Source of the DNA: an uncultured Eubacteriales bacterium
GTDB lineage: Bacteria; Bacillota; Clostridia; Saccharofermentanales; UBA5734
Length of the DNA: 37,410 nt
Assembly: GCA_903919045.1 (NCBI GenBank)
Contig: CAIXGU010000097.1
Span: 1-37,410, forward strand
Direction of reading: 5' to 3'
Shown here: piece by piece, positions 8,974 through 21,540 of the stretch
Numbering within the stretch: position 1 is the first letter of the stretch
Layout of the letters: every line of letters starts with the position of its first letter
Notes under the pieces: model-generated
Databases searched by the model: none
Seen by the model: only the letters and a program-made list of their open reading frames with translations
Told to the model about the DNA's origin: nothing
Position numbers and translations under genes: made by a program

Positions 8974-9002
8974 AAGGATGCGGCCTCGGCCGCATCCTTT
9001 TT
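8974..9002. terminator. Intrinsic terminator between convergent rpmB and the SH3 gene
   Basis: A perfect 12-base-pair stem (8974-8985 with 8988-8999) with a 2-base loop is followed by a run of T on the plus strand. On the minus strand the hairpin is followed by TTCTTC, so it may serve both genes. Confidence 0.9.
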
Positions 9003-9067: not shown

Positions 9068-10345
9068 CTAGGGGTTCGCGAAGAGCCGGCGGACCGCGAC
9101 CACCCGCGCGAGCAGGGCCGGCTCGTCGGCGAGCGTCACGAGGCGGACCGAGGAGCGGTTGGCCCGGCTCATCAGCACCTGTCCTTCTCCGACGTACAGG
9201 GCGACGTCCGCGTAGACGGGGGCCTCCGGCATCGGCGTGGCCGTGAGCGCGGCGGACGTCGGCGTCAGCGGCTTCGCGGCGCCAGGCGTGGAGGTGGCGA
9301 CAGGAACGGGGGTCACGGGTCCGAACAGGACCAGGTCGCCGCTGCGCCACGCCGTCGTCGCCCAGGTCCCCGTCTTCTCGTCCTTCTCGAGGGGAACGGA
9401 CGCGCCGGACCCCGCGATCCCGTCGAAGGCATGCGGTATCGTGCGGCCGTTGACCGCCGCCGCGACCTGGACCAGCCCCTGCGTGTCGATGCCGTCCTGC
9501 GTGAGACCGCCGGGCAGGTAGGTCATGCCCAGGAAGGCCATCGCGCTCGCGACGAAGGCCGCCGCGCCGCTCTCCTGCACCGTGCCGTCGACCGGAAGCT
9601 CGATCAGGCCGTTGCTCCCGATCCATCCCGTGCCGCCGCCCGCCAGCGCGACGCGATAGATGCCGTCGCCGCGGTAGTCGGCGTAGAGGACGGTCCCCAT
9701 CATGACTTCCTGCAGGAGCGTCCCCTGGCTCGCGTGCGACATGATGCGACGCACGCGGTCGGCGACGACGAGCTTGTATCGGTACAGGTACGGCTCGGCG
9801 GAATCGCGGGCGTCGGTGAGCCGGTCGGAGGCGACGTAGCCGCGCATCCCGTCGGGCAGCTCGACCGCCGCGTAGCCGTAGGCGGCATCCGCGTCGACGA
9901 CCTTCACCGGGGCGTTGTACAGGACCTGCGTGATCCGGTCCGCCCGGAGGTCCGGACGGTCGAGGACGTCGGCGGCGGTGGCCCGGACGACCCGCGTCGC
10001 CTCGGACAGGATGCGGACGGCGGGGTGGCCGTTGTTCGGCTCCCGGTCGCCGAAGAAGGACGAGAGGGCGGCGACCGCCAGCGGGGCCACGACGAACACG
10101 AGCACCGCGAGCAGCGCCGTCACCGCGACCGGGGTCGCCCAGGCGGGGAGCCGGCGGCGCCCGGCGCCGTCGACGTAGACCTTCCGGTCGTAATAGGGCA
10201 GGGTCTCGCGGCCGAAGGCGTTCCCGCGCGCGGAGCGCTGCGCGGAACGGCGGGAGGCGCTGCGGCGGCGGCCCCGTCCGCCTCCGCGGACGGGGCCGGA
10301 TCCGCGGTCGAAGCCGCCCGGCGGTGTCCGGCCGGACAGGTTCAA
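9068..10345 (-). CDS. YkfC-like SH3/NlpC-P60 protein lacking catalytic residues
   Basis: A 425-residue protein with a cytosolic Arg/Gly-rich head (1-65), one membrane helix (about 69-95) and two bacterial SH3-like domains (about 110-250). The last domain (about 260-425) aligns to NlpC/P60 peptidases of the YkfC type. In active enzymes the motif is DCSG with a later H-V-x-x-Y-x-G. Here these read IDTQG (Thr288 for Cys) and YADVALYVG (Asp380 for His). The usual IHS after it is LMSR. The whole protein contains no cysteine, so hydrolase activity is not expected. A Thr/Pro-rich insert (about 343-375) sits inside the domain. The TTG start overlaps the acpS stop (TTGA) and has GGGGAGGAG five bases upstream. 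Likely a cell-wall binding or scaffold protein (inference). Confidence 0.85.
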   Translation of the reverse strand: MNLSGRTPPGGFDRGSGPVRGGGRGRRRSASRRSAQRSARGNAFGRETLPYYDRKVYVDGAGRRRLPAWATPVAVTALLAVLVFVVAPLAVAALSSFFGDREPNNGHPAVRILSEATRVVRATAADVLDRPDLRADRITQVLYNAPVKVVDADAAYGYAAVELPDGMRGYVASDRLTDARDSAEPYLYRYKLVVADRVRRIMSHASQGTLLQEVMMGTVLYADYRGDGIYRVALAGGGTGWIGSNGLIELPVDGTVQESGAAAFVASAMAFLGMTYLPGGLTQDGIDTQGLVQVAAAVNGRTIPHAFDGIAGSGASVPLEKDEKTGTWATTAWRSGDLVLFGPVTPVPVATSTPGAAKPLTPTSAALTATPMPEAPVYADVALYVGEGQVLMSRANRSSVRLVTLADEPALLARVVAVRRLFANP

Positions 10346-10770
10346 GGGGACTCCTCCCCGATCAGGGCGCCGGAGGATCCCCTCGAGGTCAGGATGACGC
10401 AGCTCGCCGCCGCGACGTCGCCTTCATGCGTGAGGCTGATCGCGACGTCCTCGCCGCCGACCGCCCGGAATGCCGCGAGCGCCGCGTTGCGCAGCCGCAC
10501 GGTGGGTTCGCCGCTTTCGGCGCGCATCACCTCGATATCGCCCAGGGCGATCCCGTCGCGCATCAGGCCGGTCCCGAGCGCCTTCCCGACCGCCTCCTTC
10601 GCCGCGAAGCGCACGGCCAGGGATTCATAGCGGCTCTCCTCGCCGCGTGCGAGGCAGTAGGCGAGCTCGACCGGGGTGAAGGTCTTCGAGAGGAACGCGT
10701 CGCCCTGCCGGCGCACGACGTTCCGGATCCGATCGATGCTCGCGATGTCGATTCCGCAGCGCAGTCCCAT
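10342..10770 (-). CDS. acpS: Holo-[acyl-carrier-protein] synthase
   Basis: Transfers 4'-phosphopantetheine from CoA to acyl carrier protein. The 142 residues show the family motifs: GIDIASIDRI at the N-terminus with the metal-binding Asp, FAAKEAVGKALGTG in the middle, and SLTHEGDVAAA near the end. The start at 10770 has GGAGGG upstream and places the GIDI motif at the normal position; the frame upstream is not conserved. It overlaps the SH3 gene by four bases and is probably co-translated with it. Confidence 0.95.
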   Translation of the reverse strand: MGLRCGIDIASIDRIRNVVRRQGDAFLSKTFTPVELAYCLARGEESRYESLAVRFAAKEAVGKALGTGLMRDGIALGDIEVMRAESGEPTVRLRNAALAAFRAVGGEDVAISLTHEGDVAAASCVILTSRGSSGALIGEESP

Positions 10771-10868: not shown

Positions 10869-11888
10869 ATGCTGTATCCCCTCCGCTTCCGTCCCGTCTA
10901 CCGTCCCTATCTCTGGGGAGGCCGCGCCCTCGAGCGCTTCCGCGCCGATGTCCCGGCGACGGGCCCCCTGGCCGAGTCCTGGGAGGTCTCGTGCCTCCCG
11001 GACGGGCTCTCGGTCGTCTCGGGCGGCGTCCTCGACCGGCTGACGCTTCCCGACGTCATCGCCCGCTTCGGACCGGAGGTCCTCGGCCGCGACGTCGCGG
11101 CCCGCACCGGCGGGCGGTTCCCGCTGCTCGTCAAGCTGCTCGACGCCGCCCTGCCCCTGTCGGTGCAGGTACACCCCGGCGACGCGGACGCGGCGCGCCT
11201 GGAGGTCGGCCAATCCGGCAAGGCCGAGATGTGGTACGTGCTCGAGGCACGCCCCGGTGCGACGGTGGTCGCGGGCCTGAAGACCGGGACGACCCGCGAG
11301 CGGCTCGCCCGCGCGCTCGAGGAAGGGGATCCCGAGCCGCTGCTCCACCGCATCGAGGTCCGCCCCGGAGACGTCGTCGACATCCCGCCCGGCTCCGTGC
11401 ACGCGATCGGCGCCGGCCTTTTCCTCTACGAGCTCCAGCAGAGCAGCGACGTCACCTATCGCCTGCACGATTGGGGCCGCCGCGATGCCGCGGGACGGCA
11501 GCGCCCCCTCCAGGTCCCGAAGGCGCTCGAGTCGATCGATTTCCGGCACCGCGCGGCCGGCGTGCGGCGGGCGCTCCCGTACCGCCGACCCGACGCCGGG
11601 CGGACGACCGGCGAGGTCCTCCGTCGCACGCTCGTCTCGAATGCGCACTTCCGCGTCGACGAGTTCACGCTCGGCATCGGGTCGACGGCGCGCTTCGAGG
11701 CGGCCGGCGACCGGTTCCGGGTCCTGACGGGCGTCGCGGGCGAGGGCTGGCTGCGGTACGTCGACGAGAAGGGGCGGCCGGTGACGATGCCGCTCCGCAC
11801 GGCGGAGACCGTCCTCGTGCCGGCGGCGCTCGGCGGCTACGTCCTCGAGGGCCCGCTCACGGTGCTGGAGGCGGTCCCTTCGGTCTAG
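10869..11888 (+). CDS. manA: Mannose-6-phosphate isomerase, class I (ManA type)
   Basis: Interconverts mannose-6-P and fructose-6-P; a zinc cupin enzyme. The 339 residues match the short Gram-positive ManA form: RPYLWGGRAL at the N-terminus, AESWEVS, LSVQVHPGD with the metal His, KAEMWYVLEA with the metal Glu, and PPGSVHAIGAG with the third ligand. The start at 10869 follows GAGGT by six bases; the frame upstream to 10782 is unconserved. The 3' end overlaps the convergent dnaI-like gene by 32 bases. Confidence 0.93.
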   Translation: MLYPLRFRPVYRPYLWGGRALERFRADVPATGPLAESWEVSCLPDGLSVVSGGVLDRLTLPDVIARFGPEVLGRDVAARTGGRFPLLVKLLDAALPLSVQVHPGDADAARLEVGQSGKAEMWYVLEARPGATVVAGLKTGTTRERLARALEEGDPEPLLHRIEVRPGDVVDIPPGSVHAIGAGLFLYELQQSSDVTYRLHDWGRRDAAGRQRPLQVPKALESIDFRHRAAGVRRALPYRRPDAGRTTGEVLRRTLVSNAHFRVDEFTLGIGSTARFEAAGDRFRVLTGVAGEGWLRYVDEKGRPVTMPLRTAETVLVPAALGGYVLEGPLTVLEAVPSV

Positions 11889-12945
11889 ACGGCGTCTTGC
11901 GCCGGCGGACCGCCTGGCGCAGGTCTTCCCCGAAGAAGCGGTAGCTCGCGAAGCCTCCCAGGAGGCGGGACAGCACCCGCTCGTCGTAGGCGTCGCGGAT
12001 GTCCTTCGGCTCGAGGTTCGTCGCCACGATCGTGCGGCGCGGCGCGCCGTGCCGCGGTCCGGAACGCGTGTTGAGCACGGTGAGCAGCTCGGGCATCCGC
12101 GTCGACGACGGCGCCTCGGTCCCGAGGTCGTCGACGATCAGGAGCTCGACGCCGAGGATCCGGTCGTAGACCTCCTCCGCCTGCTCCAGGCGGTCCTCGT
12201 CCGGACGGAAGGAGGCGACGAGCGTGCGGTACGCCGAGATCGCCTCGAACAGCGCCGGCGCCCCCAGATAGAGCACGGAATGCGCCCGCTTCAGCATCCG
12301 GTCCGCGATCGCGCCCGCGAGGAAGGTCTTGCCCGTCCCCGGCTTCCCGACGAACAGCAGGTCGCGCGTGCCGGCCTCGCCGAAGGCGTCGCAGAAGGCT
12401 TCGCAGGCCTTCCGGATGCCGAGGACGTTGTCGCGCGGCGACAGGTCGGAGCCGTAGCGCTCCTTGTCCGGCGCATCGGAGAACAGCGACGCATCGAAAC
12501 GCTCGAAGGTCAGGCCGTCGAGGAGGCCGAGATTCGCCCGCTCGAAGAGCATCGGGACCAGGATCGCGTCGCGGCAGACGCAGGGGCGGTGGCGTCCGGT
12601 CGGCGGGTCCTCGTCGGCGAGCCCCGTGTCGCGGCAGATCGGGCAGGTCCAGCGCGGCGCTTCGAAATCGGCCTCGACGCCCTTCTCCGCGAGGAATGCG
12701 AGGCGACGGGCGGTGCGCTCCCGCTTCTCGGCGGCGAGCCCGGCGACGCGCGCCGCGGCGTCCGGCCCGGTCTGCAGCGTGGCGGCGAGCATCGCGGCGC
12801 CGGTCTCGGCGATCTCCCGGTCGAGCGTCGCGAGCGCGGGGTACGTCGCGCGCACGGCGCGCGCACGCTCCGCCCCCGCGCGCTCCGCCCGCTCCCGGCG
12901 GGCCGCGTAGACCGCCTCGATGCGCTGCTCGAGCCCGTTCCTCAT
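11857..12945 (-). CDS. DnaC/DnaI-like helicase-loader ATPase
   Basis: An AAA+ ATPase of 362 residues of the DnaI/DnaC helicase loader family. The N-terminal half is Ala/Arg-rich and helical. A zinc-like set (CPIC at about residue 100, CVC about 20 residues later) precedes the AAA+ core, which shows Walker A GKPGTGKT, Walker B LLIVDDLG, and a sensor-like VATNLEPKDI with the later DERVLSRLLGG arginines. It starts in an ATGA overlap with the DnaD-domain gene, the usual clostridial pairing for primosome proteins. The basic tail reads RRRKTPSRPKG. The 3' end overlaps manA tail to tail. Confidence 0.92.
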   Translation of the reverse strand: MRNGLEQRIEAVYAARRERAERAGAERARAVRATYPALATLDREIAETGAAMLAATLQTGPDAAARVAGLAAEKRERTARRLAFLAEKGVEADFEAPRWTCPICRDTGLADEDPPTGRHRPCVCRDAILVPMLFERANLGLLDGLTFERFDASLFSDAPDKERYGSDLSPRDNVLGIRKACEAFCDAFGEAGTRDLLFVGKPGTGKTFLAGAIADRMLKRAHSVLYLGAPALFEAISAYRTLVASFRPDEDRLEQAEEVYDRILGVELLIVDDLGTEAPSSTRMPELLTVLNTRSGPRHGAPRRTIVATNLEPKDIRDAYDERVLSRLLGGFASYRFFGEDLRQAVRRRKTPSRPKGPPPAP

Positions 12946-14120
12946 TCCTTCGGCGCCTCGAGCCGGAACAGGTCGAGCTGGCCGGGCAGCACCGCGGGCG
13001 GCACGGAACCCCGCGCGGCGGGCGGCGCTTCGGGCGGCGGAGGCGTCGCGGCGTCGGGGTCGTCGGGATCGGGGGGCGATACTTCCTCGTAGAGGCTGCC
13101 CAGGTATTCGTCGCTGTACTCGCGCTGGACGAAGTTGCCGGCATTGCGCGCACGGCCGCGTCCACCATCCGGACCCGGGGCGCTTGTCGTCCCGGCGGCC
13201 TGCTCCGCCCGCCGTTCGGCGGCGATCCGCCGCATCCGCTCCCCCTCGTACCGCTCGACGTCCTCCGGCGTCTTCACGCCGTTCCGGGACCACTCCTTCA
13301 GGATGCCGTCCACGAACGCGAGGTTGGGGTTGCGCAGCTTCACGGTGCGCCGCAGGGCGAGGTCGACCACGTCGAAGCCGTAGCCGAGCCCGTTCGCCCA
13401 GTTCGCGACGAGCTCCTCGTCGTATTGGGTCATCGCCTTCCGCAGCCGGCGGCCGACCTTGCGCGACAGGTCCGCGAGCTTCTCGCGCTCCGCGAAGTAC
13501 GCGCTCAGGTCCTGGAAGGTCACGATGCCGTTCGTCGACCAGCTCTGCGCGACCGCCGCGATGTAGCCCTTGCCGTCGAGCTTGCCGCGGTCCGCGCAAT
13601 AGCGGAACAGGGCGTAGATCACCTCCGGCTCGAAGCGGTAGCGGTCGAACCAGGAATCCACCTCGTAATACCAGGCCGGGGCCATCAGCCCCTGGAAGAA
13701 GGTCTTCGCGATGTCGGCGAGCAGCTTGTCCCGCGCCGCCCGCCGCGCTTCGGCCGGCGTGCGCGTGCGCTCCGCGCCGGGCTCCGCGCCGGCCGTCTCC
13801 GGTTCGGACGACGTGCGCGGCCGGTAGACCTTCCCGACCTCGACCGCCTTCACGTCCACGATCTCGAAGCCGCGCTCCTTCATCTGCACGAGTCCGGCCG
13901 CCGCCAGCTGCGCGGTCGCCGCGCGCACCGCGTCCGGGTCGGCGCCGAGCCGGCGCGCGAGCTCCGCTTCCGTGAAGGTCCGCCGCGCGCGGGCCGCGAA
14001 CAGCGCGTACACGTAGAGCTTCACGGCGAGACCGTCGAGCGCGGGGAGGTATTCGGTGATGAAGATGTCCGGCACGAGCGTGTCGGAGAAGAGGAGCCTG
14101 CGGCTTTCGTCGATCTGCAT
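12942..14120 (-). CDS. DnaD/DnaB-domain primosome protein
   Basis: A 392-residue replication initiation protein with an N-terminal winged-helix part (about 1-100) and two DnaD/DnaB_2 repeats. The first (about 138-215) contains WYYEVDSWFDRY and ends in the YIAAVAQSW segment; the second (about 230-290) contains AFVDGILKEWSRNGV, the canonical end of the domain. The C-terminus is a low-complexity Pro/Asp/Ala tail ending in a hydrophobic QLDLFRLE that could contact partners. GGAGGAG precedes the ATG at 14120. Co-transcribed and overlapping with the loader ATPase; both point to a Bacillota-type primosome. Confidence 0.9.
   Translation of the reverse strand: MQIDESRRLLFSDTLVPDIFITEYLPALDGLAVKLYVYALFAARARRTFTEAELARRLGADPDAVRAATAQLAAAGLVQMKERGFEIVDVKAVEVGKVYRPRTSSEPETAGAEPGAERTRTPAEARRAARDKLLADIAKTFFQGLMAPAWYYEVDSWFDRYRFEPEVIYALFRYCADRGKLDGKGYIAAVAQSWSTNGIVTFQDLSAYFAEREKLADLSRKVGRRLRKAMTQYDEELVANWANGLGYGFDVVDLALRRTVKLRNPNLAFVDGILKEWSRNGVKTPEDVERYEGERMRRIAAERRAEQAAGTTSAPGPDGGRGRARNAGNFVQREYSDEYLGSLYEEVSPPDPDDPDAATPPPPEAPPAARGSVPPAVLPGQLDLFRLEAPKE

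Positions 14121-19593: not shown

Positions 19594-21540
<1,947 letters not shown>

Follow-up and report, generated by a model that had tools for sequence, protein, structure and literature searches.

The gene that adjoins acpS in a 37,410-nucleotide stretch of contig CAIXGU010000097.1 (GenBank assembly GCA_903919045.1), from an uncultured Eubacteriales bacterium of the order Saccharofermentanales, raises the question of what a protein built like a wall hydrolase may do once its catalytic residues have been replaced. This stretch is referred to below as the window and the gene as pseudo-YkfC. An initial annotation, made from the letters of the window alone, described the product as an NlpC/P60 pseudo-peptidase with a YkfC-like layout, translationally coupled to acpS, and suggested a structural or sensing role at the wall.

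The features of the locus are listed in Table 1. The overlap of the pseudo-YkfC start with the acpS stop is borne out by the sequence, and an SD-like element, GGGGAGGAG, lies immediately 5' of this TTG start. A scan for promoter and terminator patterns at the pseudo-YkfC locus found neither; the palindrome in Table 1 came from folding. The gene names yhaO, yhaN, ugtP, sleB, dnaC, dnaD, and pspA are labels assigned here, with Pfam support. Elsewhere in the window (19597-21540, minus strand), phosphoglycerate kinase and triosephosphate isomerase (PF00162, PF00121) are fused in frame into 648 residues.

Table 1. Features of the pseudo-YkfC locus and its product, in window coordinates.
Feature	Position	Strand	Remarks
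Terminator-like palindrome	8974..8999		between the convergent pseudo-YkfC and rpmB genes; seen by folding
Pseudo-YkfC CDS (SH3b-SH3b-NlpC/P60)	9068..10345	minus	425 aa, TTG start
Degenerate NlpC/P60, residues 259-422	9080..9571	minus	Cys to Thr288, His to Asp380, third His to Met392
Thr/Pro-rich insert in P60, residues about 343-377	9215..9319	minus	low model confidence
SH3b2, residues 188-250	9596..9784	minus	most conserved domain of the order (199-209, 221-223, 241)
SH3b1, residues 117-180	9806..9997	minus	BcYkfC Tyr118 position is Met167
Hydrophobic helix (predicted signal anchor), residues 67-98	10052..10147	minus	model helix 70-98
Arg-rich N-terminal tail, residues 1-66	10148..10345	minus	pLDDT 43-68
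acpS (holo-ACP synthase)	10342..10770	minus	TGA stop overlaps pseudo-YkfC TTG as TTGA
manA-like phosphomannose isomerase	10869..11888	plus	between dnaC and acpS, opposite strand
dnaC-like ATPase gene	11857..12945	minus	conserved upstream neighbor; phmmer versus IstB_IS21-family protein of L125
dnaD-like gene (PF07261)	12942..14120	minus	conserved upstream neighbor

Protein architecture and the former catalytic site

Pfam searches with the single window sequence identified SH3_3 above the cut-off (31.6 bits) and NLPC_P60 (PF00877) below it (20.7 bits, where 23 are required). An AlphaFold2 model of the 425-residue protein (mean pLDDT 84.7; 62 aligned sequences) consists of two SH3b domains and a P60 domain, the ectodomain being predicted at high confidence; its top structural match is BcYkfC (3h41; Z 27.1, 2.6 Å, 263 residues, 23% identity), followed by three Bacteroides dipeptidyl-peptidase VI structures (Z 26.2-26.3), and a profile search with the orthologs also matched 3pvq, 3npf, and 3h41. 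As the model aligns to many NlpC/P60 structures and the ortholog profile matches them, the protein belongs to the NlpC/P60 family by descent, and the 3h41 alignment places it in the YkfC subfamily arrangement of two SH3b domains and one NlpC/P60 domain. This SH3b1-SH3b2-NlpC/P60 fold is shared with YkfC and the Bacteroides enzymes (3pvq, 3npf, 4r0k) at Z 26-27 over 263-269 residues. Sequence homology between YkfC and the window protein is detectable as well, and both are exported, as the hydrophobic helix suggests for the latter; however, YkfC has a cleavable signal peptide and a ykfB gene context, whereas the window protein appears to have a signal anchor with a long tail and is encoded in a dnaD-dnaC-acpS context. 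The Arg-rich tail is probably cytoplasmic, judging from the adjoining hydrophobic helix, in which P88 is present in 87 of 88 relatives. The Thr/Pro-rich insert does lie within the P60 domain, as described initially, and is absent from most relatives, its core columns being gapped in 82-86 of the 88. In the model, T288 begins a helix (288-298), the one that bears the catalytic Cys in the NlpC/P60 family.

At the position of the DCSG motif the window protein reads D287-T288-Q289-G290, and alignment confirmed that the catalytic Cys and His positions are occupied by Thr288 and Asp380 and that the protein contains no Cys at all. The Cys-free composition was ruled out as a signal in its own right, as 14 of 89 ORFs of the order are Cys-free and the others carry Cys elsewhere. 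According to excerpts of the BcYkfC paper (PMC2954226), L-Ala-γ-D-Glu is gripped in this enzyme by Tyr118 (of SH3b1), Tyr226, Trp228, Ala229, Asp237, Ser239, Arg255, Asp256, Ser257, and His291, together with Cys238 and His303, and the free L-Ala amine is bound by Asp256 and Tyr118. When these residues were mapped onto the window protein through alignments, Tyr118 corresponded to Met167, Tyr226 to Tyr276, Trp228 to Pro278, Ala229 to Gly279, Asp237 to Asp287, Ser239 to Gln289, Arg255 to His305, Asp256 to Ala306, and Ser257 to Phe307, while the catalytic Cys238, His291, and His303 corresponded to Thr288, Asp380, and Met392. The Cys-His-polar triad of NlpC/P60 cysteine peptidases and most pocket residues have thus been replaced, with Tyr226 and Asp237 retained; the YkfC layout said to be otherwise kept is kept with regard to the fold, but not with regard to the substrate pocket.

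The same holds across the order. None of the 89 ORFs has both the catalytic Cys and the catalytic His (L018 has the Cys without the His, and L084 the His without the Cys), a loss so uniform that it represents more than chance. Scored on 11 catalytic and pocket residues (Ala229 left out), the 89 order members, window included, most often keep two and at most five, while 41 of 42 intact enzymes keep 9-11 and the remaining one keeps seven. In the intact enzymes, conservation is much stronger in the catalytic and pocket columns than in the remaining columns of P60 (mean entropy 0.24 vs 1.79, p = 6e-6); in the order it is not (2.24 vs 2.11, MWU p = 0.80). Trp228 is kept in 0, Asp256 in 9, Ser239 in 5, and Tyr118 in 1 of the 89, while Tyr is still found at the Tyr226 position in 52 and Arg at the Arg255 position in 75. 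Nor is the Thr/Asp pair conserved among orthologs, which mostly carry V, I, M, P, T, or L at the first position and E, D, or S at the second, and this variation indicates no replacement dyad; no P60 column of the order reaches 80% Ser, Thr, Cys, His, or Lys. Column 384, near the lost catalytic His, is Cys in 46 of the 89 members (the window protein not among them). These alignments support the description of a pseudo-peptidase with YkfC architecture, inactive throughout the order: the window protein is almost certainly a pseudoenzyme by its sequence, and γ-D-Glu-DAP endopeptidase activity is predicted to be absent.

Intact and inactive copies outside the order

The initial annotation held that orthologs with an intact DCSG motif would speak against a pseudo-peptidase, and such orthologs do occur outside the order, although they do not make the window copy active. 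Searches of the class and the phylum brought up relatives in other families, and DCSG and His are present in all 28 phylum-level matches that were read (L136-L163) and in all eight canonical matches of the class (L115-L122). In a related order (that of genome G206), the gene was matched in 42 of 58 genomes, at one syntenic place; 40 of the 42 copies were read, those of G272 and G791 being cut by contig ends, and the His column of L193 was unreadable. Among the 40 readable copies, 8 are intact (L127, L165, L172, L176, L183, L188, and L190, plus L166 with an altered pocket) and 32 are inactive. The presence of intact DCSG copies at the same locus points to an active ancestor. In the inactive copies of this order the Cys has been replaced by Gly, Ser, Ala, or Tyr and the His by Asp, Glu, Ser, Cys, Leu, Met, Thr, or Gly; L169, L182, and L184 keep the Cys and have lost the His, and L164 and L168 keep both His and have lost the Cys. 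L164 (genome G794) has Ser in place of Cys, and L168 (G799) has Tyr in place of Cys with the remaining pocket intact. These two are candidates for very recent inactivations or sequencing errors, as single substitutions such as the Cys-to-Tyr change in L168 could be errors.

When the 12 site columns were removed, a tree with 25 of the 89 members of the order, 40 of the 44 other loci at the same place, and 7 of the 28 phylum enzymes as rows (omitting L193 and L190, which are incomplete, and L113 and L192, each closely related to a row that was retained) requires at least five changes of activity state. A single loss of activity, with all pseudoenzymes in one clade, was rejected: a tree that groups the 57 inactive rows apart from the 15 intact ones is 98 log units worse (AU p = 0.000106). 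Activity was thus probably lost repeatedly, this being the simplest reading; regain of activity in its place would require many residues to return. In a separate tree of 90 rows made with a quick method, the intact L127 likewise falls inside the inactive group. Family f27, which is sister to the window's order with modest support (92/70), is inactive in all three loci, and acpS adjoins the P60 gene in two of these.

Retention, selection and conservation within the order

The protein is present in 92 of 98 related genomes of the order and in 71 of the 74 better ones, several genomes being fragmented; 89 ORFs of the 92 matching genomes were read, leaving out G046 (split over two frames, L091), G027, and G095. 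Among named records, the nearest is a MAG contig from an uncultured Clostridiales (L031), which duplicates L002. Six genomes (G012, G025, G028, G036, G049, and G052) have no match, five of them in family f4 with genomes of 1.6-1.8 Mb, and the gene seems dispensable in these. Median dN/dS, calculated from 72 close pairs of which 38-50 had usable dS and which share ancestry and hence are not independent, was 0.079 for P60, 0.033 for SH3b2, 0.099 for SH3b1, 0.183 for the tail, and 0.155 for acpS, with a P60 maximum of 0.271 across 44 usable pairs. This is not the pattern of a functionless domain, and purifying selection acts strongly on the three-domain body.

In the syntenic block of the related order, ypeB and sleB-like genes sit near the P60 gene. 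A sporulation role prompted by these neighbors is unsupported: none of the 98 genomes of the window's order gave a match for SpoIIIAE (PF09546) or YpeB (PF14620), in searches that were both positive only in Bacillus subtilis among 14 controls, and a spore role is thus unlikely to account for retention.

Within the order, SH3b2, a domain distal to the YkfC active site, has taken over from the catalytic pocket as the focus of conservation. Mean pairwise identity is 0.47 for SH3b2 and 0.34 for P60, SH3b2 being higher in 95% of 3861 pairs; the corresponding values are 0.43 and 0.44 for the inactive copies of the related order, 0.48 and 0.58 for intact copies at the locus, and 0.27 and 0.53 for intact phylum enzymes. 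The groups compared differ in depth and breadth, the intact set being taxonomically broader, but the contrast between domains within a group is independent of this. The pseudoenzymes of the related order, which lack the SH3b2 shift, indicate that catalysis was lost there without it. In the window's order, most of the positions that gained conservation lie in SH3b2, among them 199, 203-205, 208, 221, and 223, with Lys199 in 86, His204 in 78, Tyr221 in 73, and Asp223 in 81 of the 89 members (the window has Arg at 199); these residues may be structural rather than ligand-binding.

The anchor differs as well. Copies outside the order have a lipoprotein-like N-terminus, a strict lipobox pattern matching 35 of 44; of the nine that this pattern missed, eight have, by eye, a small residue and Cys after the hydrophobic stretch, and the N-terminus of L190 is cut. 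In the order the pattern occurs in just 2 of 89, at unsuitable places, and the anchor therefore appears, from these N-termini, to have changed from a lipoprotein type to a tail and transmembrane helix.

Possible functions of the non-catalytic protein

We favor, with moderate confidence, the reading that pseudo-YkfC has been retained as a membrane-anchored, non-catalytic binder or scaffold with SH3b2 as its main contact. The N-terminal tail and single transmembrane helix would keep the SH3b1-SH3b2-P60 body at the outer side of the membrane, where the SH3b2 loop 199-209, residues 221-223, and residue 241 would make contact with a polymer of the wall or with a partner protein. What we infer here is the membrane topology, the inability to hydrolyze in vitro, and both the binding by SH3b2 and the nature of its ligand. 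Of the structural or sensing role at the wall suggested initially, a structural or binding role, probably centered on SH3b2, is consistent with these data, while sensing of muropeptides through the P60 groove is unlikely given the loss of the L-Ala-γ-D-Glu pocket.

The alternative closest to a described case is that peptidoglycan is bound through the degenerate P60 groove, as for mycobacterial RipD (Rv1566c). Excerpts of a 2025 review (PMC12067865) describe RipD as non-catalytic and peptidoglycan-binding, likewise with an NlpC/P60 domain retained after its catalytic residues were replaced. RipD is the closest described case; the kind of loss and the fold are the same, and 4jxb and 4lj1 align to the P60 part of the model (residues 257-423) at Z 14.4-14.6 over 115 residues. 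The frequent Tyr and Arg at the Tyr226 and Arg255 positions would also fit groove binding. By contrast, residues that hold L-Ala-γ-D-Glu (Trp228, Asp256, Ser239, and Tyr118) have been lost from nearly all members of the order and pocket columns are no more conserved than the rest of P60, so that we consider this alternative unlikely. RipD further differs in having a C-terminal pentapeptide-repeat region, whereas the window protein ends with P60 at residue 425, and in its gene context; its match covers the P60 part alone, whereas in pseudo-YkfC most of the substrate pocket is gone and constraint sits in SH3b2.

It is rather improbable that the protein instead activates or inhibits a true wall hydrolase through its old active-site groove, as the degenerate LytM domains of EnvC and DipM do. 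Degenerate hydrolase domains that serve as regulators of wall hydrolysis are a precedent in excerpts of PMC11627006, and the window's genome encodes a single canonical NlpC/P60 protein, L092, in which DCSG and His are present and which could be a client. However, EnvC and DipM belong to another protease family (M23) in which the degenerate groove is the functional contact, whereas the groove of pseudo-YkfC shows neither residual nor new conservation in the order; moreover, no hydrolase gene is among the conserved neighbors in the marked stretches, and the identity of any client is speculative.

A function tied to AcpS or lipid synthesis is very unlikely, despite the coupling of the two genes across the order. 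In 86 of 89 order loci, acpS is the immediate upstream gene on the same strand, the exceptions being L030, at a contig end, and L034 and L039, where the P60 gene has no detected adjoining acpS, and in 32 loci the P60 start codon lies within acpS, 4 bases from its end, although start codons were picked nearest the acpS stop, a choice that favors small distances. On the other hand, dnaC and/or dnaD are equally constant upstream neighbors (upstream of acpS in 57 of 60 order loci), AcpS is a cytoplasmic enzyme, and in the related order metallophosphoesterase and SMC-like ATPase genes usually stand between acpS and the P60 gene. Among 28 wide-flank loci outside the order (a set that includes three loci from family f27 and one from a different class), these two genes precede the P60 gene in 22, MGDG-synthase-like, sleB-like, ypeB, dnaC, and dnaD genes often follow it, and acpS lies within the fetched stretch at just 12. 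Downstream of the P60 gene, rpmB is found in 40 of 60 order loci, and the window has the gene order of its order with the addition of manA. The coupling that had been read as a pointer to the wall is real, but it sits in a conserved dnaD-dnaC-acpS-P60 block with replication genes and thus by itself suggests neither a wall nor a lipid function.

That a different catalytic site has been acquired is highly improbable. The conserved Lys, His, Tyr, and Asp of SH3b2 and the Ser in place of Cys, with both His kept, in L164 of the related order might be cited in favor of such a site; however, SH3b domains are binding modules, and the P60 domain of the order has no conserved nucleophile, base, or pair, with column maxima of 18 of 89 for His and, at column 384, the above-mentioned number for Cys. 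A decaying pseudogene product without function, which would explain the loss of all catalytic residues, is hardly tenable, being contradicted by the selection test, the open frame in the order, and the presence of the gene in nearly all of its genomes.

As for the broader reading around the membrane-anchored binder, we suggest, tentatively, that a muropeptide endopeptidase locus may have been converted to a non-catalytic protein several independent times in related lineages within one class and that in the window's order the conversion may be complete, with the functional center moved to SH3b2 and the lipid anchor exchanged for a transmembrane helix, yielding an SH3b-based membrane-to-wall receptor or scaffold. 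In the open-access literature we found no description of a receptor or scaffold of this kind, and nothing linking acpS with NlpC and SH3 or YkfC with a pseudoenzyme. The intact syntenic enzymes of the related order share the locus and the three domains of the window protein, but have DCSG and His intact and, where complete, a lipoprotein-type N-terminus.

That dead enzymes are kept for other work is already well known. At this locus, one syntenic position is occupied by copies of a wall hydrolase that are intact, were inactivated recently, or have long been inactive, which makes it testable which function preceded the loss of catalysis. For the poorly studied order itself, pseudo-YkfC is a nearly universal envelope protein that annotation by homology would likely call a C40 peptidase or an SH3 protein, although it is not expected to cut.
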